A stretch of DNA of 64,000 nt from a virus: positions 62,001 to 126,000 of the IMG/VR virus record IMGVR_UViG_3300032313_001394; one strand, given 5' to 3'. Positions 22,372-64,000 of this stretch are shown piece by piece. A model generated the notes under the pieces. That model was not told the DNA's origin, did not search any database, and was given only the letters and a program-made list of their open reading frames with translations. Position 1 is the stretch's first letter. Every line of letters begins with the position of its first letter. A program made the translations under genes and the position numbers.

Positions 22372-22995
22372 TTAAATCGATCTATATGCTTGTCTAATTC
22401 GTTTTTGAACTAGCTCTTTATAACCATCAGCAGCGGCTATAAATTCACCTCGTGATGCATTCCATAACTCTAATTCTGCTTTACGACGACGTACTAATCC
22501 TTTACGAACACGTCCACCTGCTAATTTATACTGTAGTAGGTATGGTTTGATATTTTTACCACGTTTAATTGCTCTACCTAAACCATCAGTGCTGAAACGC
22601 ATTCCGATGTTATAGGCAATCATTGATGTTAATATAATCTTTTTATATGATTTAACTTCAGGAAAACGACGTTTAACGTCTTTAATGAATTTTTGATAAT
22701 CTTTATCAAATAGGCGATCTGCTTCCTCTAATGTAATACCATGTCTATATTTACGACGTTCGGTTTTAGTCATAACATGGCCCCATCCAATTGTCCATTT
22801 ACCACCTGGGCATTTATATGGTTTTAATTTTAATGACTCTTCTGACTTAATGAATAATGTAGCTGTATTGTAGAGTTTATCTTCGGTAGGTTCAGCTACT
22901 GTAATGTGTTTTGGTTCTTGTGGTGGTTTGTCTTGTTTATTATTATAACCTATCCACAATGCGGCTAGCATAGCTGTTATGACTATTTTCTTCAT
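22372..22995 (-). CDS. GH24 phage lysozyme (endolysin) with N-terminal membrane helix
   Basis: 207 residues. The T4-lysozyme signature is present as EESLKLKPYKCPGGKWTIGW: catalytic Glu53, then Cys62 in the position of Asp20 of T4 lysozyme, then Thr68; the E-8aa-(D/C)-5aa-T spacing is allowed in this family. The N-terminus (1-17) is a hydrophobic helix with little polar flanking, so it could be a signal peptide or a SAR anchor. It hydrolyses peptidoglycan for lysis. It lies away from the late lysis genes and has an early-type promoter, which is odd for an endolysin. Confidence 0.8.
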   Translation of the reverse strand: MKKIVITAMLAALWIGYNNKQDKPPQEPKHITVAEPTEDKLYNTATLFIKSEESLKLKPYKCPGGKWTIGWGHVMTKTERRKYRHGITLEEADRLFDKDYQKFIKDVKRRFPEVKSYKKIILTSMIAYNIGMRFSTDGLGRAIKRGKNIKPYLLQYKLAGGRVRKGLVRRRKAELELWNASRGEFIAAADGYKELVQKRIRQAYRSI

Positions 22996-47438: not shown

Positions 47439-48083
47439 TTAGTTTAGCTTTAAAAGCATACCAATTCCCATATAAGCATTTGGACGCATAGAACCTTCAT
47501 GTACATTACCACCAACTTGTAATTGAAGTAAATTATCATTTAATGATTTACGAACAATTGATAACCCAAATGATTGGAAGGGTTGTGTAAAGTTTGTAGT
47601 CATATGTGGTCCCATATACCATTGTATTGTTTTTGGTCGATATACCTCTACAATTCGTTCCTTAATTTTTGGTTTTACATCTGCAATCCATCTTCTACTT
47701 ACTAGGCGATTATGTGAAATTGTATCTGTAATTATAACATTGCCAACACCTTCTTCTAATGTTAGTACTTCTCTATGTACATTCTTTGGATAGTATTGTT
47801 GCAGAATAGCAACAGTATCTAATGCTGTTGGAGCAGTTGGTACATTTACTAGTTTATACTCAATTTGTGGAACTTTTACAATCTGTGGTTTTGATTTTTT
47901 AATCTTTACCTGTGGTACATATTTAATTTGAGTAACATTAATTGTTTGAGGTTGTTTTATTGGAATTACTTTAGATACGGTAGCAACTCCGTTCTTATAT
48001 GTTTTAATAATAATAAATTTTTGTTTTTGGCCAAACGCTGACACTCCCATCAGCATTAGTAATAGTATGTATAACTTTTTCAT
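47439..48083 (-). CDS. Exported protein, possible outer-membrane barrel-like
   Basis: 214 residues. MKKLYILLLMLMGVSAFGQ is a signal peptide with a likely cut after Gly18 or Gln19. The mature N-terminal half is Lys/Pro/Val-rich (PQVKIKKSKPQIVKVPQIEY); the last 90 residues are strands such as FGLSIVRKSLNDN and YMGIGMLLKLN, like a small beta-barrel end. Sits in the replication module, which is surprising. Followed by another such protein set at 58-61 kb. Confidence 0.6.
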   Translation of the reverse strand: MKKLYILLLMLMGVSAFGQKQKFIIIKTYKNGVATVSKVIPIKQPQTINVTQIKYVPQVKIKKSKPQIVKVPQIEYKLVNVPTAPTALDTVAILQQYYPKNVHREVLTLEEGVGNVIITDTISHNRLVSRRWIADVKPKIKERIVEVYRPKTIQWYMGPHMTTNFTQPFQSFGLSIVRKSLNDNLLQLQVGGNVHEGSMRPNAYMGIGMLLKLN

Positions 48084-57179: not shown

Positions 57180-57890
57180 TTAAATGTATGCTTGTAAATT
57201 AAATTTTAACATTTCTAGTACTTCTTGTTTAGCTGTTTTAGCATGATCAGCAAATACACCTGATACTTCTGATGTCATCATACTAGCACCCATATGCTTA
57301 ACTCCACGACATGATACACAATTATGTGTTGCATGCATCATTACCATAATACCTTCATTACCTTCAATTAATTTATCCATAGCATTATGAATAGCCATAG
57401 TTAATTGCTCTTGAATAGCACCTCTACGTGAGAAATGCTCAACTACACGATTTAATTTTGATAATCCGATTACCTTTGATTCAGGACCAGGTACATATGC
57501 AATATGACATTTACCTAAGATTGCTTGGTGGTGATGAGAACACATTGATATTACTGGAATATCGCGCTCTAATACAATACCATTATAACCGTCTGATGGG
57601 AATGCTGTAATATCACCTAATACTTCATAACGGCCTCTCCATAAATCATTAACGTATGCTTTAGCAACGCGTTTTGGAGTGTTAGATGAGTTTGGATCGT
57701 TTTTCCAATCAACACCTAATGCGTCTAAGAAATTACCATATGCAACAGTTGCATTATCGATAATAGTTTGTTTTTCTTCTACGGTTAGAGATCGCTCTTT
57801 ACCTTCGGTTTTAATGATTTGTTGTAAATGGAGTGAGATACCATTTGCATTACCTGAATTGGTAATTTCTAAATTGTCTATTTTACACAT
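57180..57890 (-). CDS. folE: GTP cyclohydrolase I
   Basis: 236 residues. SMCSHHHQAILGKCHI (115-130, zinc ligands Cys117 and His), IGLSKLNRVVEHFSRRGAIQ (141-160) and ATHNCVSCRGV (187-197, Cys191) are typical of FolE. Converts GTP to dihydroneopterin triphosphate, for folate or for the queuosine and 7-deazaguanine pathway that some phages use to modify DNA. No QueC/D/E partners are seen in this window. Confidence 0.9.
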   Translation of the reverse strand: MCKIDNLEITNSGNANGISLHLQQIIKTEGKERSLTVEEKQTIIDNATVAYGNFLDALGVDWKNDPNSSNTPKRVAKAYVNDLWRGRYEVLGDITAFPSDGYNGIVLERDIPVISMCSHHHQAILGKCHIAYVPGPESKVIGLSKLNRVVEHFSRRGAIQEQLTMAIHNAMDKLIEGNEGIMVMMHATHNCVSCRGVKHMGASMMTSEVSGVFADHAKTAKQEVLEMLKFNLQAYI

Positions 57891-58276: not shown

Positions 58277-59806
58277 CTATAAGTTTAATTTAGAACCTAC
58301 AGTAAAGAAGAATGTAGGTTTATCAAATGTAGATGGTATATTTGATTTAATATTAAAGTTAATTCGGAAACGTTTAGATAACGGAATATCAAATGAATTA
58401 CCTAACATAACATTAAAATCTTTATTTACTCTCATTATTGGATCACTCGTAATATAAGATGTCGGAGAATAAAGTAAAAACACCTCAGGTGTAAATTTAA
58501 TTTTAGTTTTTGTTTCTAATGGCCTCATATAGAATCCAGTTAATGACGGACCATACATTTGATCGCCTGATCCTAAGAATCCAGCAATTAAAGATACGTT
58601 ATAACCTGCAACACCTTTTTTACCTAATAATTTAATATAAGTATATCCAGCAAATGTTAAATGGTCTGTAAATGTAGTTGCATATGTTAATGAGTAATTT
58701 CGAACATGACTAATAGCACCGTTTGTAGTATACATTTTAGTATACTTACCTGTTAATGCTAATTGTTTGAAATTTAAGTGGATCATTGAAGTAGCACCCC
58801 ACGATTCATTTCCCATTAACGATGCTTTAGATGCTGATACACCCAGTACTGGAGTAAATGTATTGTCTGCATTTTGCATTAATGCAAAGTCACCTTGTAC
58901 TACTAATGGATTAGTTGTATTTACTGTTTTAGCTTTCTTTTCGTCTTTTTTACTATCTGATTTCTTTTCGTCTTTTTTGCTTTCACTTTTAGCATCGTCT
59001 TTCTTTTCTTCCTTACTTTCGGATTTAGATTCTGATTTGCTTTCTTCTTTGGATTCCGACTTTGATTCGCTTTTAGATTCAGACTTGGCTTCAGCTTTAG
59101 CCTCTGCTTTAGCTTCGGCCTTTGCTTCGGCTTTAACCCCTCCCGGAGATCCACCGCCTCCTCCACCACCGCCTCCACCTCCACCACCTGGAGCGCCTCC
59201 ACCACTTGGAGCGGAACTACCCGCTGATGATGCGCTTGAACTCGCTGTAGATGATGCTGAACTAGATGCACTAGATGATGCGGTAGATGAAGCTGTGTTA
59301 GCGGCAGCACCTGCGGCTGTATTGGCTGCTGTACCTGAAGCTGTGTTTGCTGCTGTAGATGCTGCTGTATTGGCAGCTGTTGAAGCTGCTGTAGAGGCAG
59401 CGGTACTTGCTGCTGTTGCGGCCGCAGTAGCAGCAGCTGTTTGTGCTGCTGTTTGAGCAGCAGTCTGGGCAGCTGTCTGTGCCGCAACTTGAGCTGCTGC
59501 TTGAGCTACTACTGCTGAAATTGTATTTGAAATTGTTTGAGTTTGAGTTTGGGCAACTACTTCTTGTGCTTTACACACATATGCTTTCATTTGCTCATTT
59601 ACCCATAATTGTACCTCTCCTTTAGCTGCTTCTTCATATGAAAATGAACGTGCAGAACTACGATATACAATCAATACTGAACCCCCGATCGGAACAGTAT
59701 ATAATACCATCTGTTTCGAGCAGGGGTCAAAGTATGCGTTGGTAAGTACTTGTGCCTTACTTAAAAATGAAACAGTTAAGAGTAAGAATACAAATACATA
59801 TTTCAC
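58277..59806 (-). CDS. Exported low-complexity protein with barrel-like C-terminus
   Basis: 509 residues in four parts: a signal peptide (MKYVFVFLLLTVSFLSKAQ, 1-19); an N-domain to about 97; a low-complexity span (99-295); and a strand-rich C-terminal domain (about 300-509) that resembles an outer-membrane barrel and ends VGSKLNL. The low-complexity part runs from TAAQ/TAAS/TAAN tetrads to Ser-rich, then a Gly run (207-219), then KAEA, KSES and KKDEK repeats. It is likely an extracytoplasmic or virion-surface protein, perhaps a tail-fibre-like or host-envelope protein. Confidence 0.65.
   Translation of the reverse strand: MKYVFVFLLLTVSFLSKAQVLTNAYFDPCSKQMVLYTVPIGGSVLIVYRSSARSFSYEEAAKGEVQLWVNEQMKAYVCKAQEVVAQTQTQTISNTISAVVAQAAAQVAAQTAAQTAAQTAAQTAAATAAATAASTAASTAASTAANTAASTAANTASGTAANTAAGAAANTASSTASSSASSSASSTASSSASSAGSSAPSGGGAPGGGGGGGGGGGGGSPGGVKAEAKAEAKAEAKAEAKSESKSESKSESKEESKSESKSESKEEKKDDAKSESKKDEKKSDSKKDEKKAKTVNTTNPLVVQGDFALMQNADNTFTPVLGVSASKASLMGNESWGATSMIHLNFKQLALTGKYTKMYTTNGAISHVRNYSLTYATTFTDHLTFAGYTYIKLLGKKGVAGYNVSLIAGFLGSGDQMYGPSLTGFYMRPLETKTKIKFTPEVFLLYSPTSYITSDPIMRVNKDFNVMLGNSFDIPLSKRFRINFNIKSNIPSTFDKPTFFFTVGSKLNL
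58922..59512. repeat. Low-complexity repeat tract inside gene
   Basis: Codes residues 99-295 of the protein above: TAAx tetrads, Ser-rich tetrads, a Gly run, then KAEA, KSES and KKDEK repeats. Locally GC-rich against an AT-rich genome. It opens long spurious frames on other strands. Confidence 0.8.
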
Positions 59807-60636
59807 TAAGCTAGTAGCTTATAATATTCTTTAAAATGTTTGATACGATCTGGTAGACCAATTGTACCACCATTAACACGTTTTGTGATTTGAGTAACTA
59901 CAGCATCGGAAGCACCACTATCAGCCATCTTGTGTAATCCGTTTTTAGAGAAAAACCAAGCAGCTGAGAGTAAGGCATATTTCGATGAAACCACATCTGG
60001 GTTAGACAAAATGTCTTCTCCAATGGACTTACCGAATGCAGTGTAGTTTTCTTTACCAGTTAACTGTATGTAACCTCTTCCGCGAAATTTATATCCTTCA
60101 CCTGATGCTTCATTACCATTACCCATTCTACCTCCGTAGACACGAGCAGCAATTTTAGCAGGTTTGCGTTCATACTGGGCAGCTAATGATGCGTTTGGAA
60201 AATATTTTTTAAATATTCCCATTAATCCTTTAGCTGAATAATTTAAATTTTCTTGAGTTGCGCGGAATCCACCTGATTCGTGTCCGCACTGTGCTAAAAA
60301 GTGAGCTAAACGTAATGGGGTATTGATAGCAAATTTAGCTGCTGTATCAGGAATCATTGCAATTACTGCATCAGGAATGTGTCCTTTTAAATTAGCTAAT
60401 TTTAGATTACCTGAATTAGTAATTGGAGCAACTACTGGTGCTGCTGGAGTAGCAATACCAAATAATTTACCCCAAGTACCAGCTCCAACTATACCATCAG
60501 CTGTTAATCCGTTAGCTGATTGCCAAGCTTTAACTGCTGCATCTGTTTTAGGTCCAAATTTACCAATGGCTTCTATACCTAATTTTACTTGAAGCTTTTT
60601 TACATCTTCACCCTCGGATCCTAGCTTTAATAGCAT
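59806..60636 (-). CDS. GH19 (chitinase-like) endolysin with PG-binding domain
   Basis: 276 residues. Residues 1-60 are a PG_binding_1 domain (LKLGSEGEDVKKLQVKLG...FGPKTDAAVKAWQ...TADGIVGAGTWGKL). From about 85 comes the GH19 domain: FLAQCGHESGGFRA (113-126; Glu120 catalytic), SGEGYKFRGRGYIQLTGKEN (178-197) and Asn-rich loops. Cleaves peptidoglycan; probably the main endolysin. The stop overlaps the downstream gene by one base. Confidence 0.9.
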   Translation of the reverse strand: MLLKLGSEGEDVKKLQVKLGIEAIGKFGPKTDAAVKAWQSANGLTADGIVGAGTWGKLFGIATPAAPVVAPITNSGNLKLANLKGHIPDAVIAMIPDTAAKFAINTPLRLAHFLAQCGHESGGFRATQENLNYSAKGLMGIFKKYFPNASLAAQYERKPAKIAARVYGGRMGNGNEASGEGYKFRGRGYIQLTGKENYTAFGKSIGEDILSNPDVVSSKYALLSAAWFFSKNGLHKMADSGASDAVVTQITKRVNGGTIGLPDRIKHFKEYYKLLA

Positions 60637-60683: not shown

Positions 60684-61103
60684 TTAGAACTGGATTTTAT
60701 CCAATTTGTAAGTCAAACCTAATCCTGGTGTGAAGTTAGATCCAACTAGATTTCCAATGACCCAAATTTTAAGTCCTTCGGATTTTAATGGAGCGTATCC
60801 TATCCACACGTTAGGCTTATTTACATTATCTACAGGTTGAATACCCATACCTAACATTAAGCGCTCACTAGCAAACATACGAATAACACCAAATTTCATA
60901 GTTTTATCAAAACTACCTGTTTTAGTTGATACCATTGGATCAGCGTCATACTTAAAACCAGCATAAATACCCCATCCTTTTTTGATATAACCACCTGTTA
61001 AGTATCCGTCCATACCTTTATTAGTAGCAGAACCGAAAAATTCTTGTGCGTTAGCAGCTACTGCAGACAAACACAAAATTGCAATCAATAATAACTTTTT
61101 CAT
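60684..61103 (-). CDS. Small exported barrel-like protein
   Basis: 139 residues. MKKLLLIAILCLSAVAANAQ is a signal peptide (cut after Ala-Gln). The mature part is strands (GYIKKGWGIYAGFKYD, KFGVIRMFASERLMLGMG, PGLGLTYKLDKIQF) ending in Phe, as in outer-membrane barrel proteins. Size fits an 8-stranded or smaller barrel. Confidence 0.65.
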   Translation of the reverse strand: MKKLLLIAILCLSAVAANAQEFFGSATNKGMDGYLTGGYIKKGWGIYAGFKYDADPMVSTKTGSFDKTMKFGVIRMFASERLMLGMGIQPVDNVNKPNVWIGYAPLKSEGLKIWVIGNLVGSNFTPGLGLTYKLDKIQF

Positions 61104-61106
61104 AGT

Positions 61107-61820
61107 TTAATTTTTAAATATATTCTTTTTTATCATACGTGATACTATCCTAGAAGCTGCTGTTTCCAACGCTTTTTTAGTGGTAATTCCGATTGTTGAT
61201 TGATTAAATTTAATCTCATCAAATGAATCAGATAACGCACCTTGTTTTACTGTACTTGCTTCACCTAAGCCTGAACCAGTGATATACTCAGCAGTTTCAG
61301 CATTAACGAACTTAACTTGTAAGCCCAGCCTGGTAGTTTGAGTTTGCTTAACACCATCTTTTAATTTTAATTGTTCGTCTTCAGAAACAGAGAAGTCGTA
61401 TACCTCTACATATACAAAATATTGTGCAAGCTTAATTTTTCCTCTACCATCTAATTTATTTTCTGTAATACCTGATTGAGAAGCTTGGAATTGTTTTACC
61501 ATTCTATTCTTAATCTCGGCTTTATCTTCAGTAAAAGTAAATCGATTAGTTTCTTCTAAAAATTCAACTACAATATTTGTTAAACCTAAACCAACTCGTT
61601 TATCTTTTAATTCAGGATACATTGCAAATATCTCATCTGTAATTCCAATTGATAATAATTGAATTGGAATTTTAGGTCCTTCATAATCAGATACAACATC
61701 TATTGATTGTTTCTTTTCAAAATCAGCTTGGTATGCTTCTGTCTTTACAGAACCAATAGTTTGTCCAAGCACAGGCAAACATAATAAAGAAAGAAATAAA
61801 ATCAATAAATTAGCCTTCAT
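61107..61820 (-). CDS. CsgG-like exported protein
   Basis: 237 residues. MKANLLILFLSLLCLPVLGQ is a signal peptide without lipobox Cys. VGLGLTNIVVEFLEETNRFT (76-95), KLAQYFVYVEVYDFSV and LQVKFVNAETAEYITGSGLG match the CsgG family core (nucleotide-binding-fold domain of the curli secretion pore). The C-terminus has KKALETAASRIVSRMI, the last helix of CsgG. Host CsgG forms a lipoprotein pore; the phage version lacks the lipid-anchor Cys, so its job may differ. Confidence 0.7.
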   Translation of the reverse strand: MKANLLILFLSLLCLPVLGQTIGSVKTEAYQADFEKKQSIDVVSDYEGPKIPIQLLSIGITDEIFAMYPELKDKRVGLGLTNIVVEFLEETNRFTFTEDKAEIKNRMVKQFQASQSGITENKLDGRGKIKLAQYFVYVEVYDFSVSEDEQLKLKDGVKQTQTTRLGLQVKFVNAETAEYITGSGLGEASTVKQGALSDSFDEIKFNQSTIGITTKKALETAASRIVSRMIKKNIFKN

Positions 61821-62106
61821 ATTCTTCTTCTTTTTTTTCTGCTTTAGTAGCTTCTGAAATTTGTTTTTTCATTCCTGTAAATTTATCTACTGAAGATAAA
61901 CCTAATGAACCGAACGCAAGTAATGCTACTGCATTTACTAATGATTCTGCAGGTGCGATATGTGCTTCAGAAAATGAATTTTGATACATTGTAATACACA
62001 ATGTTAATGCAGCTAATAAACCCACAAATCGTTTTGATGATACAGCACCTTTTTCATCAGCTAGTAATGAGTTAGCACCATCCATAAATTTTTTTAATAT
62101 TTCCAT
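61810..62106 (-). CDS. Holin-like two-helix membrane protein
   Basis: 98 residues: charged N-terminal helix, hydrophobic helices at about 26-42 and 55-74, acidic tail EATKAEKKEEEYEG. The size and layout fit a small holin; overlaps the CsgG-like gene by 11 nt. Function is inferred. Confidence 0.5.
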   Translation of the reverse strand: MEILKKFMDGANSLLADEKGAVSSKRFVGLLAALTLCITMYQNSFSEAHIAPAESLVNAVALLAFGSLGLSSVDKFTGMKKQISEATKAEKKEEEYEG

Positions 62107-62265: not shown

Positions 62266-62823
62266 TTATCCTTCTATAGATTCTTCTACATCCTTTATTT
62301 TACCACATTTAAGACATTCTTCATCTCCGTCTCCATCAGCATCACCCCATACGTGTTCGCATTGGCGATGAGCGAAGTATTCATCGATTTTACCGTCGCC
62401 ATCATGATCTAAACCATCCATTGTGCCATCTCCATCTTCATCGATTTCAACGCCCTTCTTTTCGGTAGTTGGTACAGGAGTTGGTGCGTCACCTCCTTTA
62501 GTATCGGATAATGACACACCATCTTCCTCGTCCATTTTCTGAACTAACATTTTATCTTTATCTGTATCAGAGAACCAGTAATCAATAATTTTACCATATG
62601 AACCAATGAATGCTCCAAGTAACAACAACATTAATTCTTTCCATTCTCCTGCAATATCAGTGCCTTGAACAATAGCGGCAAATATACCACCAATTATTAA
62701 CATAAATCCACCTAAAACTATAGCGGTAATATACCATCTACGTTTCATCATTGCATTTAATAGTTCCTTAAATCCCGTAGGAGTAGGTTGTGACATAGGT
62801 TGTTCTTCTTTAAATAACTTCAT
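62266..62823 (-). CDS. 3TM-type holin with EF-hand-like calcium and zinc-binding tail
   Basis: 185 residues. Helices at about 32-52 and 63-77, with ELMLLLLGAFIGSYGKIIDY and YWFS similar to 3TM holins. The C-terminal tail has DEDGDGTMDGLD (128-139) and DHDGDGKIDEYF (139-150), calcium-binding EF-hand/dockerin-like loops, a third DADGDGDEE, and Cys155/His157...Cys170/Cys173, a zinc-site pattern. A holin with this tail is unusual. Confidence 0.6.
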   Translation of the reverse strand: MKLFKEEQPMSQPTPTGFKELLNAMMKRRWYITAIVLGGFMLIIGGIFAAIVQGTDIAGEWKELMLLLLGAFIGSYGKIIDYWFSDTDKDKMLVQKMDEEDGVSLSDTKGGDAPTPVPTTEKKGVEIDEDGDGTMDGLDHDGDGKIDEYFAHRQCEHVWGDADGDGDEECLKCGKIKDVEESIEG

Positions 62824-62829
62824 TGTTAA

Positions 62830-63135
62830 TTACCATTTAGGAGCTTCTTCTAGCTCTTCTTTAGCTGTTTTAGGTTTTGGTTTAACGGGAGCAGCAGCAG
62901 GAGATCCTGCGTTTTTATTTATTATAATAGTTTTTGGAGCTGCTGCAGGTGCAGCGGCTGCTTGATTGATATTAATTACTGGTGCTGGTGCTGATACAGC
63001 TGTTGCTGGTTCATCTTTTTCACCTGTAATAATTTTTGTTACATATGCTGCAATACCTAATGATATTGTACTTACAACTGTAATTAAAACTCCTTTAAGA
63101 GATTTTCCTGTTGATTCTTCTTGTTCTTCTGCCAT
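62830..63135 (-). CDS. Small membrane protein with Ala/Pro tail
   Basis: 101 residues. One membrane helix at about 14-33 (GVLITVVSTISLGIAAYVTK), then an Ala/Pro-rich stretch (PVININQAAAAPAAAPKTII) and a Lys/Pro end. Between the EF-hand holin and a coiled-coil gene; unknown function. Confidence 0.55.
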   Translation of the reverse strand: MAEEQEESTGKSLKGVLITVVSTISLGIAAYVTKIITGEKDEPATAVSAPAPVININQAAAAPAAAPKTIIINKNAGSPAAAPVKPKPKTAKEELEEAPKW

Positions 63136-63136
63136 T

Positions 63137-63472
63137 TTATTTCTTTAACGATTTAATTTTAGTTTTTACCTCTTCAACTTCTTTTTTTGTGTCTTCAACA
63201 AATGTTTTTGAAGATTCAAAAGCATCTGTAGCATCAGCTAGATTTTTAGTTTTAATAGCTTTTTCAATTTTTTCAGCAACTGCTTGAGATTCATCAATTT
63301 GAGCTTCTAACTTCTCTTCAATTTCATCAATTGCTTGTAAAGCTTTCTTAGCATCTGCTGCTAAACCAGGAGCGTATTTAGCTGATTTATCAATTAAAAG
63401 TTCAGCTTGTTCTTCTAATTTGTCAATTTTAACAAATAATCCTTTAATAAAGGCAAATAACTTTTTGATCAT
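63137..63472 (-). CDS. Coiled-coil protein with N-terminal amphipathic helix
   Basis: 111 residues, almost entirely a charged coiled coil from residue 15 (KIDKLEEQAELLIDKSAKYA on to EVEEVKTKIKSLKK). The first helix is hydrophobic (LFAFIKGLFVKI). Possibly a structural tether or Rz-like protein; no clear signal. Confidence 0.5.
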   Translation of the reverse strand: MIKKLFAFIKGLFVKIDKLEEQAELLIDKSAKYAPGLAADAKKALQAIDEIEEKLEAQIDESQAVAEKIEKAIKTKNLADATDAFESSKTFVEDTKKEVEEVKTKIKSLKK

Positions 63473-63483
63473 TTTTTTTTTAT

Positions 63484-63852
63484 TTATCTTTTAATTATTA
63501 ATGGTTTTTTAACTGTACCTCCATTGATATCAGTTAATGTTATATCGTATAATCCATCTTCTAAATCTTTGAAATCGTATATTTTAGTTACAATCTCACT
63601 TTCAGCAGTTAATGGTAATGTTTTTGTAGGTTCTACAGCAGCAAATTTATATATTTGTACAGAGTACTTAGCTCCAGTCGTAACCGCGTATTGTACTGTA
63701 ACTTGACCACCTGTTGATACTACACTAAGTATATCTGTGGACTTTGCTGTAACTCCTAATTTAATTTCAGGTGTAGATAAAACTTCTATATCACTGCATC
63801 CTGCGGTAATAAATATAAGGCCGATTAAAACAATTGATAATAAGTTTTTCAT
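63484..63852 (-). CDS. Lipoprotein with beta-rich domain
   Basis: 122 residues. MKNLLSIVLIGLIFITAGC is a lipoprotein signal with Cys19. The remaining part is strands (TGGQVTVQYAVTTGAKYSVQ, DGLYDITLTDINGGT), like an Ig-like or fibronectin-like domain. Probably anchored in the host outer membrane or periplasm. Confidence 0.6.
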   Translation of the reverse strand: MKNLLSIVLIGLIFITAGCSDIEVLSTPEIKLGVTAKSTDILSVVSTGGQVTVQYAVTTGAKYSVQIYKFAAVEPTKTLPLTAESEIVTKIYDFKDLEDGLYDITLTDINGGTVKKPLIIKR

Positions 63853-63854
63853 AT

Positions 63855-64000
63855 TTAAAAGTTGTTATATCCTGTTAATTTTATTGTTTCTGTGTTTAAA
63901 TTTATTCCCAACTGAGATCCGCTAGTTGATGCGGCATCTGTTGCAGAAGTAATTTTAATAAATGAATTAATATCTAATCCGCTTACTAATGTGCTGAATT
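63855..64000 (-). CDS. Partial gene, C-terminal 47 residues, probable virion protein
   Basis: In-frame without a stop up to the window end; its 5' part lies beyond 64000. The C-terminus reads SGLDINSFIKITSATDAAST then GSQLGINLNTETIKLTGYNNF-like strands, Ser/Thr/Asn-rich as in phage tail fibre or other surface proteins. Too short for a family call. Confidence 0.5.
   Translation of the reverse strand, partial: FSTLVSGLDINSFIKITSATDAASTSGSQLGINLNTETIKLTGYNNF

Follow-up and report, generated by a model that had tools for sequence, protein, structure and literature searches.

We asked what role could be served by a phage protein in which a signal peptide and a small N-terminal domain are joined to a C-terminal domain by a long low-complexity linker of graded composition. 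The gene lies in a window of 64,000 nucleotides, the whole stretch of DNA analysed here (positions 62001-126000 of a virus record of 139,243 bases). It occupies 58277-59806 on the minus strand, where the first-pass annotation had placed it, begins with GTG and encodes 509 aa; its start shares one base with the stop codon of an endolysin gene (TAGTG). From the N-terminus, the product has a signal peptide (residues 1-18, 59753-59806), with a predicted SPase I site between ...SFLSKA and Q and without a lipobox; an N-domain of four strands and a helix, delimited by AlphaFold2 and conservation (residues 19-79, 59570-59752); a predicted long helix (residues 80-154, 59345-59569, AlphaFold2 pLDDT 47-68); a predicted disordered linker (residues 155-297, 58916-59344, pLDDT about 31-48 over 154-297); and a C-terminal 12-stranded β-barrel predicted with AlphaFold2 and Foldseek (residues 298-509, 58280-58915), all on the minus strand. 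Helix and linker together carry a series of segments whose residue limits are approximate: xTAA tetrads (~residues 107-176, 59279-59488), Ser/Ala tetrads (~residues 177-199, 59210-59278), a Gly run (residues 202-223, 59138-59203), KAEA repeats (residues 225-241, 59084-59134), KSES repeats (residues 242-265, 59012-59083) and a K/D/E-rich segment adjoining the barrel (residues 266-293, 58928-59011). This is the order, from Ala/Thr tetrads through to the C-terminal domain, that the first-pass annotation had read. A 229-aa plus-strand ORF within the tract (58767-59456) looks like a by-product of the tract's codon composition.

The low complexity of the tract and the order of its segments are not due to chance. 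The entropy of the tract is 2.9 bits, versus 3.95 and 4.0 for the flanking domains, and it ranks lowest in complexity among 195-residue stretches when all 43 stop-to-stop frames of this size in the window are compared. The same segment order recurs in a homologue that is 64-65% identical (L041). Closer to the target, 14 near-relative loci in viral contigs encode versions that are 86-99% identical, and among ten aligned near relatives the differences fall mainly inside the linker (N to S changes; GGSS-type sequence in place of the KAEA repeats in L006). Complete near relatives from many metagenomes have 505, 509 or 515 aa, in steps that are mostly whole 4-residue units. Synonymous third-base agreement of repeated residues in the target tract is 0.37, versus 0.44 ± 0.04 in a codon shuffle, and thus shows no trace of recent slippage. 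The expectation that the tract is unstable in length was therefore not sustained in the target lineage, and a slippage-prone tract was rejected on account of both the 505-515 aa lengths and the scrambled codons. Across the family as a whole, linkers do turn over, as indicated by DNA-pure repeats in three relatives (L145, L183 and L143; z 8.2, 5.5 and 3.9). The linker encoded at L145:6712-8244 is built of GSGGS repeats nearly pure at the DNA level (third-base agreement 0.83), a fresh expansion.

The structure of the target was predicted by running AlphaFold2 on a 41-sequence family alignment. The model has the signal-peptide helix followed by the N-domain (pLDDT mostly 74-86), and then helix 80-154 (mostly 62-68), in which a conserved hydrophobic start leads into the xTAA tetrads. 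Residues 171-297 fall under pLDDT 50 and contain no helix. Exactly 12 strands are predicted over 301-508 (mostly 77-88), in keeping with the earlier description of this end as barrel-like. We found neither a helical plug ahead of the barrel nor a helix in its lumen in this model, and neither a lipobox nor a transmembrane helix besides the signal peptide in the target. When the model was compared with the PDB by Foldseek, chains of the FapF amyloid exporter ranked best (E 7.8e-6), with other small outer-membrane barrels such as BrkA, intimin and KdgM close behind; 12-stranded barrels are among these hits. Because the E-values of unrelated outer-membrane barrels lie near that of FapF, the match indicates a small outer-membrane barrel and not kinship. 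The predictions support the C-terminal domain being a small 12-strand outer-membrane barrel. The long helix, of modest confidence, may possibly form a coiled-coil trimer. Its heptad-like periodicity is significant in 9 of 41 family members, the target not among them, and was for that reason rejected as firm evidence.

Export of the protein, claimed in the first-pass annotation, is supported by a signal peptide pattern that is conserved across the family, with a nearly invariant Q19 as the +1 residue. The mature protein has two Cys residues only, both in the N-domain (C29 and C78), and a disulfide is therefore likely. Exactly two Cys are present in 34 of the 41 family mature proteins, a sequence pattern that fits a periplasmic, oxidised N-domain.

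Searches with the target protein itself found near-identical relatives in viral contigs and nothing else, annotated phages yielding none, and sequence searches of Pfam, NCBIfam, PHROG and PDB with the target or family gave no matches or low-complexity artefacts. The family was reached through the endolysin neighbour (L041), through the barrel alone (L108/L109) and mainly through a CsgG-like neighbour at 61107-61820, for which the best 80 of at least 345 relatives were used (alignment A6). It comprises 41 non-redundant members in Bacteroidetes myophages, is referred to here as DPC-linker-barrel, and is without a name in Pfam, NCBIfam, PHROGs or PDB. The sole cultured and sole annotated example found is gp018 of Flavobacterium phage vB_FspM_immuto (YP_010114430.1), a 'hypothetical protein' that L166 matches at E 2e-54. 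Domain order is kept in L041 (~65% identical to the target) and in L108/L109 (~35% identical). Both ends of the protein are fixed among the 41 members: DPC is separated from the second Cys by 51-57 residues, and the barrel spans 202-223 residues, usually with Leu last, which holds for the target in both length and end. Invariant residues are D27, P28, C29, G63, W68, C78, D306, P448, F480 and G504, so that the target N-domain carries the DPC, G, W and C of the family. There are two subtypes, with homologous N-domains (hhalign E 1.6e-21) and homologous barrels (profile comparison E 1e-6, prob 91). T9SS tails, Bacteroidetes-style signal peptides and the host of immuto point to Bacteroidetes as the hosts of these phages.

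Between the fixed ends, the linker of the 41 non-redundant members ranges from 88 to 308 residues (median 192), and its chemistry may be TAAx/KSES, GSGGS, N/T/S/G-rich, Pro-rich or KKEEE. Its polarity is kept in both barrel subtypes, with Ala and hydrophobic residues by the N-domain and Gly and charge by the barrel. When the subtypes were taken separately among these members, the mean relative linker position in the target's subtype was 0.33 for Ala (z -8.5), 0.64 for Gly (z 7.2) and 0.75 for Lys/Arg (z 10.4). The family is thus a natural experiment on linkers, with end domains fixed, length varying 3.5-fold, chemistry changing completely and polarity conserved. Domain order, family membership, synteny and polarity are read from the sequences themselves; barrel, helix and disorder are predicted, as is the CsgG fold of the neighbour.

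This neighbour, an exported protein (61107-61820, minus strand), is the family's conserved genomic partner. In Foldseek, its predicted model matches CsgG in each of the 22 top-ranking PDB hits (best E 4.2e-8), and FlgT and PelC rank lower. By sequence, no CsgG-family match was found in Pfam, NCBIfam or the CsgG chains in the PDB, and comparison with the CsgG of phage HTVC008M detected no similarity (hhalign prob 2.8). Calling it CsgG by descent was therefore rejected. It lacks the lipobox Cys, its mature end being Q20; the Cys is present in a distant relative, L204. Inspection of the monomer model of 237 aa revealed no clear amphipathic hairpin inserts. A motif scan identified a family member in 74 of the 79 listed loci that had been fetched with the CsgG-like gene alone, and in 31 of the 45 non-redundant loci examined for adjacency it follows that gene directly, as immuto gp018 follows the CsgG-like gp017. 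In the target's own clade the endolysin lies between the two, and some relatives have one or two more genes there. Across the 45 loci the family gene often overlaps the start of the next gene by 4 bases, and the next gene usually encodes another exported protein. The CsgG-like partner had four matches in cellular genomes, three on contigs with a phage-type gene cluster and the fourth partial; a family member stands beside it in 2 of the four. Further small exported proteins near the module appear CsgG-like by eye (L199:1645-2157, L119:7955-8407, L203:10316-10759).

The rest of the gene run in the window is likewise on the minus strand. The endolysin (59806-60636) has PG_binding_1 and GH19 domain matches and is followed by genes for a small exported barrel-like protein of 139 aa (60684-61103), and, beyond the CsgG-fold gene, a small membrane protein that is holin-like by inspection (61810-62106). 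Then come a membrane protein with two hydrophobic stretches and acidic DxDGDG repeats (62266-62823; its cluster in 35/55 loci), a single-TM protein with an Ala/Pro-rich tail, homologous to immuto gp016 (62830-63135; its cluster in 47/55 loci), a coiled-coil-like protein of 111 aa (63137-63472), a putative lipoprotein with an ITAGC lipobox (63484-63852) and the C-terminal end of a 597-aa exported cohesin-domain protein (63858-64000) that continues past the window (G000 125858-127648). All 55 non-redundant loci contain the CsgG-like gene; 53 also encode, no more than 6 kb away, an exported protein from the cohesin/T9SS/lectin cluster, 28 have a GH19 endolysin within that distance and 18 a holin-like protein. 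A scan of 48 upstream exported proteins recognised a T9SS sorting tail in 35 with NCBIfam and in 38 with Pfam, and a cohesin domain in 33. The T9SS C-terminal sorting domain was not found in the target protein; the tail sits in the neighbouring proteins of its relatives. Such phage-encoded cohesin/T9SS-tail exported proteins (L169:3667-5547, L119:4692-5420 and homologues, A9) are near-constant neighbours of the module, and phage-encoded T9SS cargo has been reported earlier (PMC7468147; PMC6949934).

Several other genes were observed in the window or its relatives. In the close relatives L120-L122, genes of 102 and 266 aa, or one of 300 aa, are inserted between endolysin and target homologue and are absent from the window; the 300-aa product has an Ala/Glu-rich start and a hydrophobic, Cys-containing end. 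An exported 214-aa protein with a barrel-like C-terminus is encoded at 47439-48083 of the window, and a similar-looking protein follows the target homologue directly in L108 and L109. Upstream of the module in a virus-classed contig, L190:2466-4715 resembles TonB-dependent receptors (NCBIfam TIGR01782, E 1.2e-47, under cut-off). Several phages have an exported NUC1-type nuclease near the module (L199:3556-4179, L119:1936-2514, L129:6932-7546), which, if periplasmic, might block superinfecting DNA. A GTP cyclohydrolase-like gene (window 57180-57890) and QueE/QueC/QueD-like genes (L199:8505-11429) make deazaguanine DNA modification possible. A second, T4-lysozyme-like gene with an N-terminal hydrophobic segment lies apart from the GH19 endolysin at 22372-22995.

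Taken together, we favour a reading to which we give an even chance as a whole: the target is an outer-membrane barrel with a linker-tethered periplasmic domain that acts together with the CsgG-fold protein in export or display. Taken alone, the location, a barrel in the outer membrane tethered on the periplasmic side, is very probable; the export or display role is plausible, though we lean slightly against it. The protein would be made during infection and exported, its signal peptide removed, and the C-terminal barrel would insert into the host outer membrane, leaving the disulfide-stabilised N-domain, the helix and the long disordered linker in the periplasm. Passage through a narrow barrel is unfavourable for a Cys pair. 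Since this pair disfavours passage and the two termini of a 12-strand barrel point to the periplasmic side, the periplasm is the most likely location of N-domain and linker. The N-terminal part of FapF is likewise periplasmic (PMC5557850). About 200 disordered or helical residues should suffice to reach through the cell wall, so that one of two suggestions in the first-pass annotation, a tract spanning the periplasm, stands in the form of a tether that could extend deep into it or to its far side, whereas the other, a virion fibre, does not. The linker would act as a spacer between the barrel and the N-domain, which would bind a partner or substrate; reach and flexibility would matter more than the letters, with the polarity from helix-prone and uncharged to charged being kept. 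Barrel and CsgG-fold protein may assemble at the outer membrane into a device for export or display, which would most plausibly serve the adhesin-type exported proteins (cohesin, T9SS-tail, lectin) whose genes lie in this cluster. A point against this is that proteins with a T9SS tail already leave the cell by another route. We infer the linker's periplasmic side, the partnership, the export role and the substrate; the most economical view would be that the CsgG-fold protein is the barrel's partner and that export or anchoring of the adhesin-type neighbours is the purpose.

The main rival is a lysis factor, in view of the neighbouring endolysin and holin-like genes and of the lysis role proposed for phage CsgG (PMC9004378). 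The target would then be a spanin-like disruptor of the outer membrane, produced along with the endolysin and holin-like proteins, and its tether would connect that membrane with the wall or the inner membrane so that the envelope collapses after the wall has been cut. The one-base overlap with the endolysin stop, the presence in this gene run of a putative lipoprotein and of small membrane proteins resembling holins, and the endolysin within 6 kb in about half of the loci (28/55) all agree with this. However, immuto has an endolysin-holin cluster, complete with a spanin-like gene pair, at 43.7-46.5 kb, ~30 kb away from the module (13.7-15.9 kb); the target has neither a lipobox nor a membrane helix besides its signal peptide; and surface proteins and the CsgG-like gene accompany the family more constantly than the endolysin does. 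We regard a lysis role as unlikely.

The order of signal peptide, N-domain, linker and C-terminal 12-strand barrel would also suit autotransporter-like display, in which N-domain and linker pass through their own barrel to form a flexible stalk on the infected cell surface. The autotransporter barrels BrkA, Hbp and EspP are among the Foldseek matches of the target, and many relatives have Ser/Thr/Gly/Asn-rich linkers. This reading is improbable, given a model without a helix before or inside the barrel, the invariant Cys pair of the N-domain, and the lack of any autotransporter hit in Pfam, whether for the target or for the family at large.

A linker and periplasmic domain anchor OmpA to the wall. 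If N-domain and linker of the target only did the same, the barrel could work in the outer membrane on its own, excluding superinfecting phages or letting nutrients pass. Outer-membrane proteins were common in phages in the Foldseek results, and the barrel is the fixed part of the protein while the linker drifts; but such a role, which we hold to be quite improbable, leaves both the tight association with the CsgG-fold gene and the invariant N-domain residues unexplained. A virion-surface fibre or other structural protein, suggested by low-complexity linkers in phage fibres and by C-type lectin domains in a neighbouring protein, is hardly credible. Virions are put together in the cytoplasm, where a barrel exported by Sec to the outer membrane would not encounter them, and the gene lies outside the tail-gene region, amid genes for export, envelope and lysis functions; neighbouring products are exported too. 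The papers on phage immuto that were searched yielded no virion or secretion proteomics.

The target belongs to an abundant phage family that lacks annotation and is linked to a CsgG-fold partner. CsgG operons and T9SS cargo have both been described in phages before; the papers searched did not report a phage that pairs a CsgG-fold protein with a FapF-like tethered barrel. CsgG/CsgF operons occur in SAR11 and OM43 phages, with 'sibling capture' or lysis control as proposed roles, and the present module, represented in a cultured phage that infects Flavobacterium, would open CsgG-operon function to experiment. The findings suggest that these phages remodel, or secrete through, the surface of infected cells. 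A more specific proposal, that a widespread group of Bacteroidetes myophages encodes a hybrid outer-membrane secretion/display machine of CsgG-fold protein and FapF-like barrel on a long, fast-evolving periplasmic tether, devoted to placing phage-encoded adhesins on the cell surface before lysis, is tentative and on balance doubtful.

By the tests made, the target is not a member of the FapF, CsgG, spanin or autotransporter families. FapF, the Pseudomonas functional-amyloid exporter (PDB 5o65, 5o67, 5o68; PMC5557850), shares with it a signal peptide, an N-terminal helical segment, a disordered linker and a C-terminal 12-strand barrel. However, the target has no sequence similarity to FapF or any PDB chain, has an additional Cys-Cys N-domain and is modelled without a helical plug; PTG motifs are missing in 41 of 41 family members, whose linkers have 88-308 residues versus 42 in FapF; and the gene is phage-encoded beside a CsgG-fold gene, not in a fap operon. 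FapF is also a trimer with a periplasmic trimeric coiled coil; in the target a helix is predicted and its periodicity is weak. Calling the target FapF was rejected on the lack of sequence similarity, plug and PTG motifs. Type V autotransporters (BrkA, EspP, NalP) likewise place a C-terminal 12-strand barrel behind an N-terminal region; the target differs in lacking an in-pore helix and a Pfam match and in having the invariant N-domain Cys pair. For the neighbour at 61107-61820, the periplasmic CsgG-fold proteins PelC and FlgT, lower-ranked in Foldseek and without a sequence match, offer an analogy by which it could form a periplasmic ring without a pore of its own. The phage CsgG/CsgF curli operons of pelagimyophage HTVC008M and methylophage Melnitz (PMC7029224, PMC9004378) resemble the present module as myophage clusters of a CsgG-type protein and exported proteins, with putative roles in both. 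They differ in that no CsgF or curlin-repeat protein was recognised here, a 12-strand barrel is present and the hosts are of Bacteroidetes type. In HTVC008M, where curli subunits were treated as missing (PMC7029224), the exported gp016 and gp018 beside csgFG (L206:8871-9554, L206:10638-11960) have curlin-like repeats by eye. Immuto gp018 is a true relative: its linker is neutral and S/G/T/N-rich and its barrel is of the other subtype, but it has the same domain order and the same CsgG-like gene directly upstream.
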